The translations under genes were made by a program, and so were the position numbers. This document shows, in pieces, positions 8,807 through 16,221 of a stretch of DNA of 39,677 nucleotides. Under the pieces are notes generated by a model. The model saw only the letters and a program-made list of their open reading frames with translations. It made no database searches and had not been told where the DNA came from. Each line of letters opens with the position of its first letter. The stretch's first letter is position 1. The stretch comes from Dehalococcoidales bacterium (GTDB lineage: Bacteria > Chloroflexota > Dehalococcoidia > Dehalococcoidales > UBA5760): the NCBI GenBank assembly GCA_021161775.1, contig JAGGZY010000023.1, forward strand, positions 1 to 39,677. Reading direction: 5' to 3'.

Positions 8807-9619
8807 ATGACACTAGCTAATCTACTCAGCCTGCTGGGAACAGGGCTAGGCGCTGGCTTTGCCAGTGGTCTCCTCGGAGTCGGCGGCAGCTTCATTATGA
8901 CCCCGGTTCAGTATATGGTGTTTACCCAGATGGGTATCCCAGCTGACCTCGCCGTCAGGCTAGCTTTCGGCACCAGCCTAGCGGTTATTCTACCTACTGC
9001 CGCCAGCGGCACCTGGAGACATCATAAACAGGGAGCCGTAAGATGGAAAACCGCCCTCATTATGGGTAGCTGTAGCCTAGCCTGCGCTTATGGCGGAGCC
9101 ACCCTCGCCAGTTACCTCCCCGGAGCCATCCTCAAGATAGTCTTCGGCGTTGTCGTTATCGCTACCGGTATCAGAATGCTTATCCCCAAATCAGCCAAGG
9201 CTAATGAAACACCAAAGACCAACCCTTGGCTCTGGGCCGCCTGGGGAGTACCCATCGGCTTAATCAGTGGCTTGTCTGGAGTGGGAGGCGGGATACTAGC
9301 TGTGCCGATTATGGTAATGGCCCTCAAATTCAGGATGCATAACGCTATCGCTACCTCACTAGCCGTGGTGATGATTACCAGTATTGGGGGCATCATCGGC
9401 TATATTACCCACGGACAGGGGGTCCCCGGACTGCCGGCTCATTGCCTGGGCTATGTCAATCTAGAAGCTTGGGCTCTGCTGGCGGCGACCAGCATTGGTA
9501 TGGCTCAACTTGGTGTCAAAACTGCTCATCGGCTTCCCGGTAGGCAGTTAAGATACATCTTTATCGGGGTTGCGTTTTATATGGGTCTCAGGATGCTGGG
9601 AGCCTTTGGCATAGGCTGA
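8807..9619 (+). CDS. TSUP family (TauE/SafE) permease
   Basis: 270 residues with about eight hydrophobic segments in two homologous halves. Each half opens with the family glycine motif: GLLGVGGSFIMTPV near residue 20 and GLSGVGGGILAVPI near residue 156. Both are followed by a second re-entrant motif (FGTSLAVILPTA and IATSLAVVMITS). TSUP proteins export or import sulfite, sulfoacetate or related anions; the substrate cannot be read here. Start by a GAGAGGT site upstream of 8807. It converges on the iron operon, from which the hairpin at 9640-9666 separates it. Confidence 0.9.
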   Translation: MTLANLLSLLGTGLGAGFASGLLGVGGSFIMTPVQYMVFTQMGIPADLAVRLAFGTSLAVILPTAASGTWRHHKQGAVRWKTALIMGSCSLACAYGGATLASYLPGAILKIVFGVVVIATGIRMLIPKSAKANETPKTNPWLWAAWGVPIGLISGLSGVGGGILAVPIMVMALKFRMHNAIATSLAVVMITSIGGIIGYITHGQGVPGLPAHCLGYVNLEAWALLAATSIGMAQLGVKTAHRLPGRQLRYIFIGVAFYMGLRMLGAFGIG

Positions 9620-9630
9620 GCTACCGGGGC

Positions 9631-9666
9631 TAAAACCAAAACTGCCCGACTTTTCGCCGGGCAGTT
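9631..9666 (-). terminator. Rho-independent terminator of the fur-feo operon
   Basis: A 9-bp stem (AACTGCCCG at 9640-9648 with CGGGCAGTT at 9658-9666) and a 9-nt loop. On the minus strand it is followed by TTTTGGTTTTA, and it sits 6 bases after the last feo-operon stop. On the plus strand the tail is A-rich, so it is less likely to end the TSUP transcript. Confidence 0.7.
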
Positions 9667-9672
9667 AAAATT

Positions 9673-10155
9673 CTATTCCTCGACTAAATGCTCGCTACTG
9701 GTATTCGGGGAGGCACGATGCCTCTGGCGAATAAAGTAGATTATCACCAGCGATACCGGCAGCAGGAATATTGCCGGCGTAAATGGCGGTCCACAGCCAG
9801 CCAGAAAATCCGCCGGTGGGTTAACCCAGACTTCTTCCCCAGGGATAGAACCAGCCACCTTATCAAATATCGCCATCCCGGCCATAATCCATATCATAAT
9901 ACTTGCCACCACCGACTTAGCCAACTGATGAATATTACTCTCGAAGTTATTGGCACTGGACATATACATTATGCCAGCACCGACCAGGATAATCCCGGTC
10001 CACCATAGCCACATCCCTGACATCTCCAGCGGGCCCCAGCAAACCCCCTCTACCCCATACCGCCCCAGCACCACGAACTCCATAATCCCAAAAACTAGAA
10101 CGATGATGCCAAAAACAGAAACAAATACCGAGCCTGCAGTTGATATTTTCCTCAT
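9673..10155 (-). CDS. Unknown four-helix membrane protein at the end of the feo operon
   Basis: 160 residues. Four hydrophobic segments lie at about 8-28, 47-66, 82-100 and 125-145, the last before a basic, polar tail. Loop 3-4 contains a conserved-looking AGCGPPFTPA and the first loop contains CWGPLEMSG. I do not recognise a named family. The ATG directly abuts the feoB C-part stop (TAAATG), and the only terminator of the operon follows it. It is therefore translated with FeoB and is a candidate accessory subunit for iron transport; this role is inferred from position alone. Confidence 0.7.
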   Translation of the reverse strand: MRKISTAGSVFVSVFGIIVLVFGIMEFVVLGRYGVEGVCWGPLEMSGMWLWWTGIILVGAGIMYMSSANNFESNIHQLAKSVVASIMIWIMAGMAIFDKVAGSIPGEEVWVNPPADFLAGCGPPFTPAIFLLPVSLVIIYFIRQRHRASPNTSSEHLVEE

Positions 10156-11391
10156 TTAAGCTACCCCCAATCCCATTCCTATTAAGCGGAGAATACCTCC
10201 GTAAGCGAACACGGTAACAGCCAGAACCCCTAGGGTAGCGCCAAACTCCTTGGCATTCTGCTCCTTTATCATCAGCACAAAGGTAGCCAAACAGGGGAAG
10301 TAGACAGAAAGCAACACCACCGAGCTAAACATCTGCCAGCCGGTTAGCTGTATACCCCCCAGCAGCCCCACCGCCAAATCCTTTCTCAAAAAGCCTGCCA
10401 CCAAAGGAGCTACTGTCTCTTGAGGTAAGCCAAATCCCCCGCTTATCACCGGAGATAAGGCATGACCTAAGTGAGCCATACCCCCGGTTAGATACAGCAA
10501 TTGAACAATCACGCAACCCAGCAACATAAAGGGTACCGCCACCCGCAGGAAACTGGTGGTCCTCATCCATGTCTTTCGCCATACATTCCCCCGGGTGGGC
10601 ATCCGATACGGGGGTACATCTATTAGCATCTCCGGCGACTGCCCGGGCCAAATCTTGTTAAGGATGTAACCGACCACAAAGTAGCCAATAATCAGCGCGA
10701 TGAAAACAAAACCTATCTTCTCCGGTATCAACTCCTGCATCATCCCGATTTGGGCCCCACAGGGAACAAATACCCCCAGCAGCACCATCATCATAAAACG
10801 CTGTTTCCTGGTCTCCAACGCCCGGGTTGCGGCTACCCCAGGGACATTACATCCCAGGGAGAGAATGGTCGGTACAATAGCATAACCGTGAAGTCCAATC
10901 TTGTGTAGCACGGTATCAATCAGCACGGCTAGCCGCGGCAGATACCCGATATCCTCCAGGAACGCCATTACCAGATAGAAGGCAATTATCGCCGGCAGGA
11001 CGACAGCTATCGGCATAAAAAGACCGGTGGTCAGCACCCCTCCCGCCTCAAAACAGATATCACCAGCATAGCCTGGCTGGAATACCGCCGGGTTACCGGC
11101 AAAGATGTTAAATAGCCAGGTCCCCTTCCCCGGGAAGACCGAGCCTAACCAGGGGATATAGTGGTCACCAAAAACCTTGACCAAAAAACCATCAGTAAAG
11201 AATCCGGCAAAGGTGCTGAAGAACATCCAGAAGCCGTAGATAACCGCAATAGCAAACGGGATACCTGTCTTGGGCCTAACGGTAATATCAGCAATAGCAT
11301 CCTTCAGGGTATGTTTATAAGCCCCAACCTCAACGGTCTCCTTGGTTATCCTATCGACTAGGTCCCATCTCTGGTCAATAGTGAGTTCCAC
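10156..11391 (-). CDS. feoB: FeoB membrane (permease) half, separate gene
   Basis: 411 residues. After a short N-terminal helix (RWDLVDRITKET) come the two Gate (nucleoside-recognition) modules and the FeoB C domain. The FeoB signatures present are EDIGYLPRLAVLID (146-160) and SLGCNVPGVAATRALE (178-192, with Cys181), repeated partly as LRKDLAVGLL and FPCLATFV in the second half. It forms the membrane channel of the ferrous iron transporter. The start is a GTG with GGGGGGTG upstream, inside the last 34 bases of the GTPase gene and in another frame. The usual FeoB is one chain of about 650-770 residues, so here it is split. Confidence 0.9.
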   Translation of the reverse strand: MELTIDQRWDLVDRITKETVEVGAYKHTLKDAIADITVRPKTGIPFAIAVIYGFWMFFSTFAGFFTDGFLVKVFGDHYIPWLGSVFPGKGTWLFNIFAGNPAVFQPGYAGDICFEAGGVLTTGLFMPIAVVLPAIIAFYLVMAFLEDIGYLPRLAVLIDTVLHKIGLHGYAIVPTILSLGCNVPGVAATRALETRKQRFMMMVLLGVFVPCGAQIGMMQELIPEKIGFVFIALIIGYFVVGYILNKIWPGQSPEMLIDVPPYRMPTRGNVWRKTWMRTTSFLRVAVPFMLLGCVIVQLLYLTGGMAHLGHALSPVISGGFGLPQETVAPLVAGFLRKDLAVGLLGGIQLTGWQMFSSVVLLSVYFPCLATFVLMIKEQNAKEFGATLGVLAVTVFAYGGILRLIGMGLGVA

Positions 11392-11918
11392 TTTTCACCC
11401 CCCGTTCGCTTAATAACCCCCGCTACTTTTACCGGGGCTGCCTCACTTATTCGGGACACCAGTTGCTTAATCCCCTCCCCTTGCACCGCTACTGTCGGCA
11501 CTACTGGCACCCCTAGAATCTGCTCTAGCCTCTTAGCATCTATCTTCACCTTGCTATCCCTAGCCACATCCCACATATTTAAGGCAACAACAACCGGATA
11601 ACCCCGCTCGAGAATCTCCAGAACCAGATATAGCCCCCGCTCTATTTTAGAAGCATCAAGAACACATATCACCGTAGCCCTCTTCTCCTCCTCAAGCATC
11701 CTTACAGCGACCTCTTCAGCTCCATCCTTGGGCTCAAGGGAGAAGGTGCCAGGAACATCCACCAGCTCTACATACTCCCCATCAACCAGCATCCGCCCCT
11801 TCTCATAATCAACCGTGGTTCCCGGATAGTTGGATTCAATAACCCTGGCTCCGGTTAACCGGTTAAACAGGGCTGATTTACCGACATTAGCCTGACCCAT
11901 CAGTAGTATCTTATCCAT
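11358..11918 (-). CDS. feoB: FeoB GTPase half, separate gene
   Basis: 186 residues forming a G domain. G1 is GQANVGKS (8-15), G2 is in NYPGTT (30-35), G3 is DVPG (54-57), G4 is NMWD (114-117, the FeoB form of NKxD) and G5 lies near TVAVQGEG. It ends about 25 residues after G5, so the helical GDI domain that normally links the G domain to the membrane part is missing. It overlaps feoA by 8 bases and the permease gene by 34. It hydrolyses GTP to gate Fe(II) import together with the permease half. Confidence 0.92.
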   Translation of the reverse strand: MDKILLMGQANVGKSALFNRLTGARVIESNYPGTTVDYEKGRMLVDGEYVELVDVPGTFSLEPKDGAEEVAVRMLEEEKRATVICVLDASKIERGLYLVLEILERGYPVVVALNMWDVARDSKVKIDAKRLEQILGVPVVPTVAVQGEGIKQLVSRISEAAPVKVAGVIKRTGGEKWNSLLTRDGT

Positions 11919-12141
11919 CTTTCATCTCTACCATAATTTTATTAGCCAGTCCCCGACCAATCGAGGCATTACTTCTATCAACCATAATTACCACCGGCCC
12001 CTTGAGCGGTTGCTTGCTCATCATCTTAACCTCCTTGCCCTCCCTGATACCCATACCAGCGACCTGCGCCCGCAAATCGGAACCAATGCTTTTAATCACC
12101 CCAGTCTCTTCATATTTCATCTCGGACAGCTTTTTCTTCAT
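11911..12141 (-). CDS. feoA: FeoA domain protein (second copy, adjacent to feoB)
   Basis: 76 residues with an SH3-like FeoA domain: IKSIGSDLRAQVAGMGIREGKEVKMM followed by PVVIMVDRSNASIGRGLANKIMVE. The MGIREG turn and the IGRGLAxKI block are the family hallmarks. FeoA is a small cytosolic partner of FeoB. It overlaps the GTPase-half gene by 8 bases and follows the other feoA after 68 bases. Confidence 0.9.
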   Translation of the reverse strand: MKKKLSEMKYEETGVIKSIGSDLRAQVAGMGIREGKEVKMMSKQPLKGPVVIMVDRSNASIGRGLANKIMVEMKDG

Positions 12142-12209
12142 TCGTTACCTCACTATTAAATACTAATGCCTCTCATTTGCAACAATCCCTACAAAAAAAT
12201 TTTCTAGCC

Positions 12210-12419
12210 CTACCTCACTTCTATCTTCTGGGCCATACCACGACCGATAGCTATCACATTCCTATCTACCTCAACTGCTACCGGTCCATAATTAGACACT
12301 ATCCTTACCGTTCTGCCCTCAAACAAACCCCTCAGGAATAGCTTTTGCCTTAAACCACGTCCCCCCCGGATAGCCACAATCCGGGCTCGTTCCCCAACTC
12401 CAACCTGACTCAATACCAT
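12210..12419 (-). CDS. feoA: FeoA domain protein (first copy)
   Basis: 69 residues. LSQVGVGERARIVAIRGGRGLRQKLFLRGLFEGRTVRIV and VEVDRNVIAIGRGMAQKI match the FeoA SH3-like fold. An upstream GTG at 12443 is in frame, but ATG 12419 lies two bases after the fur stop and gives the typical N-terminus, with AGGGAAG from the end of fur as ribosome site. Two tandem feoA genes suggest a FeoA heterodimer or two separate contacts with split FeoB. Confidence 0.88.
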   Translation of the reverse strand: MVLSQVGVGERARIVAIRGGRGLRQKLFLRGLFEGRTVRIVSNYGPVAVEVDRNVIAIGRGMAQKIEVR

Positions 12420-12421
12420 AA

Positions 12422-12868
12422 TTATCTTCTTCCCTGACGGCACTTAGCACAATAGCCAGTCATAGTAACCTCTACCCCAGTAATATCAAATCCCTCTTTA
12501 CGAGCTACATCTTTTCTCATCTCCGGGCATAACCGGCATTTAAACTCCACAACCTTACCACAGCCCAAGCACACCAGATGATGATGCTCCACGGCTGACT
12601 TTATCTCATAGTGGTGGCGCGATTCACCAAAGCGAAGTTCATCAATTACCCCTGCCTTCTTGAGCATCTGCAGATTTCGGTAAACCGTGGACAAGCTAAG
12701 ACGAGGGTCCTTCTTGCGTGCCTGGCGATAAATCTCATCAGCATCCAGATGCTCATGCCCCCGGCCGATAATATCCAGGATTAACGCCCGCTGGCTGGTT
12801 ATCCTTAACCCCGACGAACTTAATGCCTGACGCTCGGTCAGCAAGGCTTTTTCTTTAGTTGCCATCAT
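12422..12868 (-). CDS. fur: Fur family metal-responsive repressor
   Basis: 148 residues. A winged helix with RITSQRALILDII and the recognition region SLSTVYRNLQML (58-69) precedes a dimer domain with HHHLVCLGCGKVVEF. Three CxxC pairs are seen: C100/C103, C111/C114 and C140/C143. Two of these would form the structural zinc site, and C111/C114 is extra. Family members are Fur, PerR or Zur; the position at the head of the feo genes argues for Fur. It probably represses its own operon. No convincing ribosome site precedes the ATG. Confidence 0.9.
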   Translation of the reverse strand: MMATKEKALLTERQALSSSGLRITSQRALILDIIGRGHEHLDADEIYRQARKKDPRLSLSTVYRNLQMLKKAGVIDELRFGESRHHYEIKSAVEHHHLVCLGCGKVVEFKCRLCPEMRKDVARKEGFDITGVEVTMTGYCAKCRQGRR

Positions 12869-12901
12869 TATTCTACACGCTAACGCTTATTATTCGCAGA
12901 A

Positions 12902-12930
12902 ACTATAACACATCGCTATTCCGTTGTCAA
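12902..12930 (-). promoter_or_regulatory. Sigma-70-type promoter of the fur-feo operon
   Basis: On the minus strand TTGACA (12925-12930), 17-nt spacer, TATAGT (12902-12907). The predicted start is near 12895, 27 nt before fur. The AT-rich stretch just downstream (GCGAATAATAAGCG, about 12880-12895) is a possible operator, but it is not a clean 19-bp Fur box. Confidence 0.7.
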
Positions 12931-13000
12931 CACCCTGTACTCATTCATATGATTAGTAACACGTTGTTGTTCTATTTTATTGTTGAGAGCCGCTCTTCTT

Positions 13001-13087
13001 TGTCATTGCGAGCCGAAGGCGTGGCAATCTCCAGCAATAAAGCCTATAGTAAGATTGCTTCGGCTCCTGGCGCTCCTCGCAAAGACA
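13001..13087. repeat. Imperfect palindromic repeat, MITE-like
   Basis: It starts TGTCATTGCGAGCCGAAGG and ends CTCCTCGCAAAGACA. The arms are imperfect inverted repeats (TGTCATTGCGAG against CTCGCAAAGACA; GGCAATCT against AGATTGCTT), about 87 bp in total. The TGTCATTGCGAG...CTCGCAATGACA pattern is a well-known non-coding dispersed repeat in several bacterial phyla. It lies between fur and the patatin gene and has no coding frame. Confidence 0.75.
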
Positions 13088-13167
13088 GGTAGGATTGTTA
13101 GAGTTTTCTCGAACCCGCAATTAAAAGTGTTCCCTATCTAAACTAGCTCACACCCAATAGAGGGATT

Positions 13168-13977
13168 TTAGCTCCCGAGTTGCCTCTTTATCTCGGCGAT
13201 AGCGTGACGAGCCGCCCGCTGTCCCCGCAGAATACTCTCCTCAGCACGATGAAAATCACCCTGACGAATCGTCCCCGGATGGGGAGCAATAACGATATCG
13301 GCATCCCTAATCCCGGCTATCGCTACTTGATACCCCATAATCGAAAGCGTCTGCATCAATACACTAAAAACATTAGGCTTCCTTAGATTTTCGGGATTAT
13401 TACCCTGATTACGGTAGTCTAAATAAGGTATCACATTAACCGCAATAACGAAATCAGCCCCCATTTCCCGAGCTACCCTCACCGGTACCGGATCTACCAA
13501 AGCACCATCAACCAGATACCGACCGTGCCATTTAGCTGGTGAAAATATTACCGGGATAGAGGCACTGGCACGAACCCCATCGACCACCGAACCCTGATTA
13601 ATTACTACCTCTTCACCACTATTTATGTCGGTAGCCACACAGGCAAACGGTATTCCCAAATCATCAAAGCTAGCATCACCAATAACGGATTCCAGCCATT
13701 TTTCCAGTCTTCCCCCCTTAGCGAAACCGGTTCTGGGTAGTGTTATATCCGCTACTAGTGATAGTGTTTTCCTGCGGCTGAGATTCATTACAGCATCGGT
13801 TATTTGATTAACATCCTTACCCGCCGCGTAAAATGCCCCGATTATCGCCCCCATACTGGTGCCAGCAATTATATCAACAGGAATACCCTCCCTCTCCAGA
13901 ACCGCCAGTACCCCAACATGGGCAATCCCTCGCGCCGAGCCACTACCCAGCGCTAAGCCAACTTTTCTCTGATTCAA
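13168..13977 (-). CDS. Patatin-like phospholipase (RssA/NTE type)
   Basis: 269 residues. The oxyanion loop is GSGSARG (11-17), the nucleophile elbow GTSMG has Ser41, and the catalytic dyad aspartate is Asp157 in VDGALVDPVP. RASASIPVIFSPAKWHGRYLVDG is also typical. It is a serine lipid hydrolase of the inner membrane face or cytosol. There is no signal peptide. It is the last gene of the nurA-herA run, 28 bases after herA; a functional tie to DNA processing is not evident. Confidence 0.9.
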   Translation of the reverse strand: MNQRKVGLALGSGSARGIAHVGVLAVLEREGIPVDIIAGTSMGAIIGAFYAAGKDVNQITDAVMNLSRRKTLSLVADITLPRTGFAKGGRLEKWLESVIGDASFDDLGIPFACVATDINSGEEVVINQGSVVDGVRASASIPVIFSPAKWHGRYLVDGALVDPVPVRVAREMGADFVIAVNVIPYLDYRNQGNNPENLRKPNVFSVLMQTLSIMGYQVAIAGIRDADIVIAPHPGTIRQGDFHRAEESILRGQRAARHAIAEIKRQLGS

Positions 13978-14005
13978 TTAACCTGCCTTTCTGCTCACTA
14001 AATAC

Positions 14006-15625
14006 TCAACCCCAGAGTTCCTCAATATCCTGTTCTGCCTGCTTGGTAATATCGGTTTTGCTTGGGGTGAACCTCCGGTAATAAGTTTCACCGTAATCAC
14101 AGGGCTTAAACGAGACCGGCATCGGCACCGCATAACCAAAGATAAGCGCCTGTTGTTTGGAAGCTAGCTTAGCCAGCACCGTTTTTAACTCACCCTTGCC
14201 CGATACCCCGGACAGCACACTATCAATATCCCGGTCATTATCTAACGAAAATGCTATCTTGCTCCCCAACTGGGACATAACTTCATCATCAATCCCGCTG
14301 GGGCGCTGGTCAATCACCAGCAGGGTAACATTATACTTGCGCATCTCACGGGCAATTCTGCCGAAAATAGTCTGTGAGGCTACCTCAGGATTAAGGAACT
14401 TGTGTGCCTCCTCAATGCTTATTACTAGTGGGGTAGGCTTAGCCGAATCCTCAGCCATCGCCACCTCTACCCTCTCCTGATACCTATCGTAGATGCGGCG
14501 ACTGAGCAGATTAGCCACCAGCATATAAGAGGTAATATCCTGATACCGACCAAACTCCAGAACCACATTCTTGCCCTGCTCAAGATAACCCAAAATTCTA
14601 CCTACGGTATCCCCCGAAGCCTGAGGCTGGAGGAAACCAAGCCGACTAAGCTTAGCCAGTCCTCGCTTCAGATTCTGAAAGGTGCTCTCGTGAATGCTCA
14701 GCTCGCCCAGCAAATCCTTGGTCTCATCCACCCCCTTTAAGGCAAGGGTATTCTTTAGCCAGTTCTTACCGAATCTCCGGTGTAATTCATATACCGCATT
14801 AACCGCCGGCTCGGTAAGATTTAGGGTCTGACGAAGCAGTGCCATAACCGCCGGCTCTATCTCATCATAGCCAATCCTGACCACAAAATCGGGGGTCAAT
14901 CCCTTCCGCAGGGAACTCTTCTCATCAAGCGCAAACACAGCTACCTGAGATGGGAAAAGCTGCTTTAACCCCTTCACAAACCGCTGTTTACCCTCATCAG
15001 TGCCCTTCCAGCCATACTCGCTGTGCATATCAAAGATAAGGTTCACCGCCTTTGATTTCTGAAGCATCCCGATGAGCAATTGACGGGTAAAGAAGGTCTT
15101 CCCAGTGCCACTCTTACCGAAGATGCCACTGGAACGCTCAACAAATCTCTCCATATTGAGGCAGAGTTTGATTTCCATATCCAGCGGATTACCAATATGA
15201 AACCTCTCCTCATCCTCCTTACCGAAGACCTGCTCAAACTCATCCTGAGATGCCAATTTGACCTCGGAGAAGTGGCTGGGTATTGTCTTTACCGGTTGAG
15301 AGCCTTTAGTTTTAGCATCAGCCTGGCCGCCAATAACCTGATAGGGGGTAACCTGAAGGGTTCCATAGGTGCTGGTGCCCGTCAGCACCTCAGCCACAAA
15401 GGAGTCCGAGATATCGGGGGGAGTAATCGTAAGCCGAGGGTCAACCACCCCCAGGCTGATATCGGTTATCATCCCCAGGAAACACTGTTTTCGCCCGTAA
15501 ATGGTGACATATCGCCCCACCACCATATCCTCAACCGAAGCTGAGCTATCCAGTCTAACCTCAACCCCCCTTGTCAAGGAACCACCGGTCACAATACCTA
15601 ATCGCTGATTATTCGTCGGGGTCAT
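14006..15625 (-). CDS. herA: HerA-type hexameric DNA translocase/helicase
   Basis: 539 residues. An N-terminal HAS barrel (about 1-100, with VVGRYVTIYG) precedes a FtsK/HerA RecA-like ATPase. Walker A is GIFGKSGTGKTF (167-178), Walker B is PLVISIEEAHKFL, and a downstream block (FGRIAREMRKYNVTLLVIDQRPSGI) carries the sensor residues and arginine finger. HerA pumps double-stranded DNA and, with NurA, resects DNA ends. Its ATG overlaps the preceding HAS-barrel gene by 4 bases (ATGA). nurA starts the same gene run, so a NurA/HerA machine is likely. Confidence 0.9.
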   Translation of the reverse strand: MTPTNNQRLGIVTGGSLTRGVEVRLDSSASVEDMVVGRYVTIYGRKQCFLGMITDISLGVVDPRLTITPPDISDSFVAEVLTGTSTYGTLQVTPYQVIGGQADAKTKGSQPVKTIPSHFSEVKLASQDEFEQVFGKEDEERFHIGNPLDMEIKLCLNMERFVERSSGIFGKSGTGKTFFTRQLLIGMLQKSKAVNLIFDMHSEYGWKGTDEGKQRFVKGLKQLFPSQVAVFALDEKSSLRKGLTPDFVVRIGYDEIEPAVMALLRQTLNLTEPAVNAVYELHRRFGKNWLKNTLALKGVDETKDLLGELSIHESTFQNLKRGLAKLSRLGFLQPQASGDTVGRILGYLEQGKNVVLEFGRYQDITSYMLVANLLSRRIYDRYQERVEVAMAEDSAKPTPLVISIEEAHKFLNPEVASQTIFGRIAREMRKYNVTLLVIDQRPSGIDDEVMSQLGSKIAFSLDNDRDIDSVLSGVSGKGELKTVLAKLASKQQALIFGYAVPMPVSFKPCDYGETYYRRFTPSKTDITKQAEQDIEELWG

Positions 15626-16221
15626 CGTTTAATCCTTTCTAGAATAGCCTTAAGCTGATTAAAATCATGACTCAGCAGGATAGCCAGTTCCTTACCTGCG
15701 GTTACCAGAAAGTGCCCCCGGTCGTCGTCGCTACGCACCTTACCCATCTGACGCAGCGAGGCAGCGATAAGCTCACCAGTCGGGACAGAAAGCTGCCGGT
15801 CAATCAGGATGGTCAGAAAGTCGAACGACTGGCTAAACTCCCTGACCTCCTCAGGCAGGCACTGGTAGACAAAGCCGTGAATTCGGGCTGGTTTAGGCGG
15901 CAGGTATTGACATAGCTTACCCTCTCGCCGATGCCCCACCACCGCTACCTCAAACTCGCTCCTCAGCAGTTTTAGCAGTTGCGGATTTGATTGATAGATT
16001 GCCGTCTCACTAGCTTCATCCTTGCCCCGAGCAATAGGTCGCCGCCCCGGTTCAACACCACTGGTAGTGGCATTATAGACAATCCCGTATAATTCCCCAT
16101 CCGAGTCTCCGGTCTTTACCAGACTGCCCAGCGGCGGTAACTCATAGAGCTCATAACACTGGGCAATAAAATCTGTAGTGCTGGATTCAATAACCTCGCC
16201 AACCCTCTGGGTTTCACTCAT
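15622..16221 (-). CDS. HAS-barrel domain protein, partner of HerA
   Basis: 199 residues. The first third (RVGEVIESSTTDFIAQCYELYELPPLGSLVKT and later YGIVYNATTSG) matches the small beta barrel found at HerA N-termini. The rest is helical with DRGHFLVTAGKELAILLSHD. There is no nuclease or ATPase motif. The 4-base overlap with herA indicates a fixed stoichiometry. Similar proteins are annotated as ATP-binding or HAS-barrel proteins beside herA; the role as adaptor is inferred. Confidence 0.75.
   Translation of the reverse strand: MSETQRVGEVIESSTTDFIAQCYELYELPPLGSLVKTGDSDGELYGIVYNATTSGVEPGRRPIARGKDEASETAIYQSNPQLLKLLRSEFEVAVVGHRREGKLCQYLPPKPARIHGFVYQCLPEEVREFSQSFDFLTILIDRQLSVPTGELIAASLRQMGKVRSDDDRGHFLVTAGKELAILLSHDFNQLKAILERIKR

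Follow-up and report, generated by a model that had tools for sequence, protein, structure and literature searches.

A probable two-subunit FeoB encoded by separate genes in Dehalococcoidia and methanogenic archaea, with a four-helix membrane protein as its companion

Introduction

FeoB combines a G protein with the channel to which it is tethered, and the way they communicate is still unsettled. The canonical protein (TIGR00437; E. coli, P. aeruginosa, T. maritima) is one polypeptide, in which a 90-residue helical GDI domain (PF17910) is placed between the GTPase (G) domain and the membrane (TM) part with its two Gate domains and FeoB_C. In P. aeruginosa FeoB, conserved cysteines were located in gates 1 and 2 (Cys429 and Cys675; PMC4847171). 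Rearranged forms have been reported as well: FeoAB fusions occur in Bacteroides, and a few of them (under 3%) are without the GDI domain (PMC8980893). In the open-access papers searched we found no description of a split FeoB, of the fixed five-gene set presented here or of the protein X.

In the window (the whole stretch of 39,677 nucleotides analysed here, from a Dehalococcoidales bacterium), the G domain and the membrane part are encoded by separate genes in the order fur-feoA2-feoA1-feoB_G-feoB_TM-X. The features are as follows:

9640..9666, minus strand: terminator-like hairpin 3' of X, lying between the feo operon and the convergent tauE
9673..10155, minus strand: X, 160 aa, four-helix membrane protein directly 3' of feoB_TM, no Pfam or NCBIfam family
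10156..11391, minus strand: feoB_TM, GTG start, 411 aa, FeoB membrane subunit
11358..11391, minus strand: overlap of feoB_G and feoB_TM, 34 bases, different frames
11358..11918, minus strand: feoB_G, ATG start, 186 aa, stand-alone FeoB GTPase subunit, G1-G5 complete
11395..11403, minus strand: GGGGGGTGA, read directly from the sequence, putative Shine-Dalgarno-like site for feoB_TM
11911..12141, minus strand: feoA1, 76 aa, FeoA 1.2e-17
12210..12443, minus strand: feoA2, 77 aa, second FeoA paralogue, FeoA 4.7e-16
12422..12868, minus strand: fur, 148 aa, upstream gene, FUR 7.8e-35

The window pair is similar to canonical FeoB in its G domain, two Gate domains, FeoB_C and gate cysteines, and FeoA neighbours and a nearby fur are also common to both. 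However, it differs in being two polypeptides, in missing the GDI domain and in being followed by X. The compact one-piece FeoBs (mostly 563-611 aa; most of L098-L127; found in many phyla, Dehalococcoidia among them) share a short linker, the missing GDI and the gate 2 LRKD motif with the split form at about 38-43% identity, whereas they are single polypeptides without X and usually with one feoA seen. The Bacteroides FeoAB proteins are also a natural rearrangement of Feo, but by fusion and not fission, and X is not described for them. The components of the window system are those of FeoB; what would be new is their heteromeric form, the fixed set of five genes and X.

Results

Re-reading of the open reading frames confirmed the original prediction in the positions and lengths of both genes, the GTG start and the 34-base overlap in different frames. 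GGGGGGTGA lies 3 bases 5' of this GTG. Because a TGA stands two codons upstream in the same frame and the next ATG, GTG or TTG comes only 165 bases further in, the GTG is the sole plausible start of feoB_TM. The G1-G5 set of the 186-residue G domain was complete as predicted: FeoB_N of Pfam matched at 5.4e-51, and GxxNVGKS, SNYxGT, DxPG and NxxD were invariant in the alignment of feoB_G, which has orthologues at about 45 loci. Its best PDB match was an archaeal FeoB G domain (2wjg, 1.4e-33). For feoB_TM, Pfam matched Gate in two stretches (7.2e-29) and FeoB_C (4.6e-14). Three of its cysteines (Cys181, Cys211 in PCGAQ and Cys367 in FPCLATF) were invariant in the TM alignment (A4); compared by eye with the published motifs (PMC4847171), the latter two are the counterparts of the P. 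aeruginosa gate 1 and gate 2 cysteines. Scored alone, neither protein reached the TIGR00437 cut-off of NCBIfam (182.1 bits for feoB_G and 158.8 bits for feoB_TM against 315.65 bits). The pair keeps everything FeoB needs except the covalent tether and the GDI domain. A second FeoB was not found in the window genome (G000, 98.9% complete), where the other FeoB_N matches were weak (1.9e-14 or worse), lay in longer frames and were taken to be other GTPases.

The feoA-feoB adjacency typical of Feo operons was present, with two feoA genes upstream. At most loci an orthologue of feoA1 lies just 5' of feoB_G, while feoA2 forms a separate orthologous line. The region around the hairpin (9615-9680) folded at -28.1 kcal/mol (z -3.9).

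The same split was sought in related genomes. Among 40 relatives it was present in G013 (77% identity) and G010 (64%), close relatives with the split lying at 77% and 64-68% identity. It was also seen in L048 and about 40 other loci, and no uninterrupted FeoB of normal domain content was seen in these close relatives, which are split too. In a wide search with one genome per species (84,980 species), the best 80 loci included about 50 at 51-68% identity, most of them across the whole TM protein, and below these split-type loci the identity dropped clearly to 39-43%. Mapping of the reading frames revealed feoA2-feoA1-feoB_G-feoB_TM-X as the standing order of split loci; about 45 named loci had it, mainly those of ANME and methanogenic archaea with some bacteria. 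Altogether, the G-TM pair was seen at about 80 loci besides the window, most of them in methanogenic or methane-oxidising archaea, and X comes next at nearly all of these. Many of the relatives are metagenome-assembled genomes (MAGs), and the bacterial labels of the short contigs L058 and L061 may be binning errors. In the cultured methanogen Methanogenium marinum (G041) the split system was the only FeoB found, and several methanogens carry it beside another FeoB.

The junction between the two genes was variable. Relative to feoB_G, the frame of feoB_TM was -1 in the window, +1 in L029, L030 and L048, and 0 in others, among them loci where an in-frame stop is directly followed by ATG (L057, L069, L084); the Methanosarcinales split has an ATGA-type junction with ATG starts. 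The genes overlapped by at most 34 bases, touched, or lay further apart in Altiarchaeota (L094 and L100), where feoB_G ends more than 160 bases before the homologous TM start. Since every possible frame relation is found, translation of each subunit starts separately. All five genes are under purifying selection, with dN/dS well below 1: between the window and L029 the ratios were 0.11 (feoA2), 0.06 (feoA1), 0.14 (G), 0.11 (TM) and 0.12 (X), a pair in which synonymous sites are near saturation and with which closer pairs agree. Other pairs mostly gave 0.04-0.25, with a maximum of 0.40, reached by the short feoA genes in one comparison. In L029 (7116-8327, minus strand), the feoB_TM start has no ATG, GTG or TTG; the place of the window's GTG is taken by CTG, a possible start codon.

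Only three members of the clade do not have feoB_G and feoB_TM as separate genes. These are one-piece G-TM fusions (L061:1255-3018, L079:3315-5084, L086:3452-5218) with X still downstream, and L061, nested among split members, is probably a re-fusion. Close-by second copies of the split system, about 5-6 kb apart, were seen in one genome each on G046 contig C83, G148 contig C10 and G045 contig C188. In G047 (contig C1:1392601-1394111), the membrane subunit adjoining X lies in two frames (profile positions 1-230 and 278-403), which appears to be a frameshift or a further split. Stand-alone G subunits of Methanomicrobiales (L077, L083, L085, L089, L092, L095) carry a Cys/Gly-rich C-terminal tail, e.g. 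GCGGCGGC; this tail could bind a metal or an Fe-S cluster and act as an iron sensor on the GTPase.

The GDI domain had been predicted to be absent from both proteins, and this needs one amendment. FeoB_Cyto (PF17910) of Pfam matched neither feoB_G nor feoB_TM, while it was detected in the canonical L018 (1.2e-23); however, the last GDI helix (DQRW..I.KETV) is kept at the N-terminus of feoB_TM and lines up with the final part of the canonical linker. Its near-invariant D-x-R-W is also kept in the compact one-piece proteins, the two tested of which gave no FeoB_Cyto match either. From the last helix of the G domain to TM1, the linker counted 123-129 residues in canonical proteins versus 46-63 in compact one-piece ones. 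Because one-piece compact FeoBs are also without GDI, its loss came with the compact form and not with the split, and the idea that it was lost because of the split was rejected. Whether split or not, the compact lineage either lost the domain or never had it. The original prediction of a true two-subunit FeoB therefore holds as to the two-gene split, which the relatives carry, but not as to its argument from the missing domain. It had also not recognised X as the conserved partner of the pair, nor the mainly archaeal spread of the system.

X is the steadiest companion of the split FeoB. Among 149 genomes of the class of M. marinum, the 33 with a strong match to X were exactly the 33 with a strong match to the split TM, and X adjoined the split FeoB_TM in 35 of 35 loci at a distance of 3-66 bases; in G096 and G169 the X matches were only short and weak. 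Such identical sets would have a chance probability of about 1e-33 if the genomes were independent, a figure that is overstated as they share ancestry. X was not found adjoining the compact one-piece FeoBs among L098-L127. Its structure model (pLDDT 86) has four long helices, the first followed by a beta hairpin and the fourth preceded by a conserved ESIPGxE...FNSL...PPYxPA stretch. The best match of this fold in the PDB was not significant (E 0.61). X has no family in Pfam or NCBIfam. FeoC and the FeoB-associated Cys-rich protein were considered as identities of X and dismissed: for 41 X proteins, neither family was among the Pfam matches and nothing exceeded an NCBIfam cut-off.

In a phylogeny of 84 TM domains, the X-associated split FeoBs came together in a single clade (99/100) that has a long stem and excludes the compact one-piece FeoBs. 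The window grouped with G013, G010 and L048 (Dehalococcoidia/Chloroflexota), sister to ANME-1/Syntrophoarchaeum (99/99). X was present in 5 of 197 genomes of the window's class, the four others also having split G and TM, and this sporadic presence fits lateral transfer. From the tree and the spread of the clade, the direction is inferred to be from archaea to Dehalococcoidia, which probably acquired the operon of the window from the ANME/methanogen clade.

The flanking genes, in contrast, are native. The order of tauE, fur, the patatin-like gene and the HerA-like ATPase was kept in genus mates at 57-75% identity; fur, the same neighbour there, is native to the window locus. The genus mates hold a different FeoB at the same tauE-fur site, and the more distant relatives L035 and L036 have a one-piece compact FeoB there, so that three types occur at this locus: canonical split, compact one-piece and archaeal split with X. 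As the flanks are native yet FeoB differs, the feo genes look to have been replaced in place, and repeatedly. Comparison of window positions 8807-16221 with L035, L036, L040 and L041 showed that tauE-feo-fur-patatin-HerA is syntenic across the order. This synteny secures the window against a binning error.

Discussion

Our results make it quite probable that the window encodes a genuine two-subunit FeoB, in which G and TM from overlapping genes form, with FeoA and X, one importer of divalent metal, most likely Fe(II). feoB_G and feoB_TM would be translated separately. FeoB_G may then dock non-covalently on the retained DERW helix and the cytoplasmic face of FeoB_TM, the last GDI helix being the natural candidate docking site, and would gate FeoB_TM on GTP binding or hydrolysis. 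FeoA may help as in other Feo systems, X is expected to lie next to FeoB_TM in the membrane and to be an additional subunit there, and the family together with the neighbouring fur points to Fe(II) as cargo. That G and TM belong together is indicated by the natural G-TM fusions inside the split clade. No PDB sequence relatives of feoB_TM were found, and when the natural fusion L061 was used as query for a fold search, the structures listed were NFeoB G domains only.

Overlapping frames in a MAG contig resemble an indel, and splits seen in one genome elsewhere (e.g. L045) could indeed be errors. Nevertheless, the same split recurs at about 45 named loci as well as at the 35 of the M. marinum class (sets that are partly shared), all three relative frames occur, and selection is purifying. 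On these grounds the idea that a normal FeoB was broken by a frameshift, by gene decay or by misassembly is ruled out as extremely improbable; even if joined, the frames would still lack the GDI domain, as the fused relatives do. Programmed frameshifting or stop read-through, giving one fused FeoB, would find a possible slip site in the G GGG GGT at the window junction and some encouragement in the CTG of L029. A -1 slip at GGGGGG, however, runs straight into a TGA, the slip site is not conserved, and the frame relation (-1, +1, 0 or ATGA-type) and the spacing, with the Altiarchaeota gaps as the extreme, vary so much that a conserved frameshift signal is excluded; we consider this explanation very improbable.

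Other readings accept two proteins and dispute what they do. FeoB_TM might be a permease alone, with FeoB_G acting elsewhere as a free regulator and no single complex formed, as the separate proteins and the Cys-rich G tails of Methanomicrobiales, which hint at a separate sensing role, would allow; the constant gene order and the G-TM fusions within the clade make this unlikely. A minor but real chance remains that the same architecture carries another cargo (Mn(II), Ni(II) or Co(II)), be it in every member or only in part of them. For P. gingivalis, a Mn(II)-specialised FeoB lineage has been discussed (PMC8749426), and several methanogens have the split system beside another FeoB, whereas it is the sole FeoB in the window genome and in M. 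marinum, fur adjoins it and both gate cysteines are kept. The suggestion of the original prediction that the FeoA proteins and the four-helix protein replace the missing linker or GDI drew on their shared operon and now seems decidedly unlikely, because X persists in the three fused members and GDI-less fused compact FeoBs do without it. By the same fusions, X follows the split clade and not the split itself, and is more than a bridge.

Returning to the two-subunit FeoB, a stronger form of it is about evenly balanced in our judgement: an obligate multi-subunit Feo class (FeoB_G, FeoB_TM, X and FeoA1/FeoA2) with an exchangeable soluble GTPase and a required X, which would have originated in methanogenic/ANME archaea, or close to them, and later passed to bacteria. 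In a two-protein FeoB, the free subunits allow direct tests of the communication between G protein and channel, such as nucleotide-state binding, subunit swapping and FeoA titration. X would add a new component to Feo, recognised here by its strict co-occurrence.

Division of FeoB into two genes has happened repeatedly. In three genus mates of the window organism (L040:1223-3240, L041:1280-3297, L042:1635-3655), a canonical-type FeoB lies in two genes with an ATGA-type overlap, and the cut, tested in L040, falls inside FeoB_Cyto (positions 1-46 on G and 48-90 on TM). This system has the same fur...tauE locus and G and TM on two genes as in the window; however, it is of canonical type, with 29% TM identity and without X, and is an independent fission. 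Further split FeoBs were noticed in L043, L045, L111, L119 and L125, some of them single and possibly sequence errors. All observed cuts fall between G5 and TM1.

Surveys of archaeal iron genes that use one-piece FeoB queries may misread the split system. For example, a survey of methanogens searched with FeoA and FeoB of Methanosarcina acetivorans; the consulted sections of that paper report Methanothrix thermoacetophila to be without FeoB and do not mention a split system (PMC8351635). In our search, both of the two genomes examined from the genus of L069 had a strong match to the split system.
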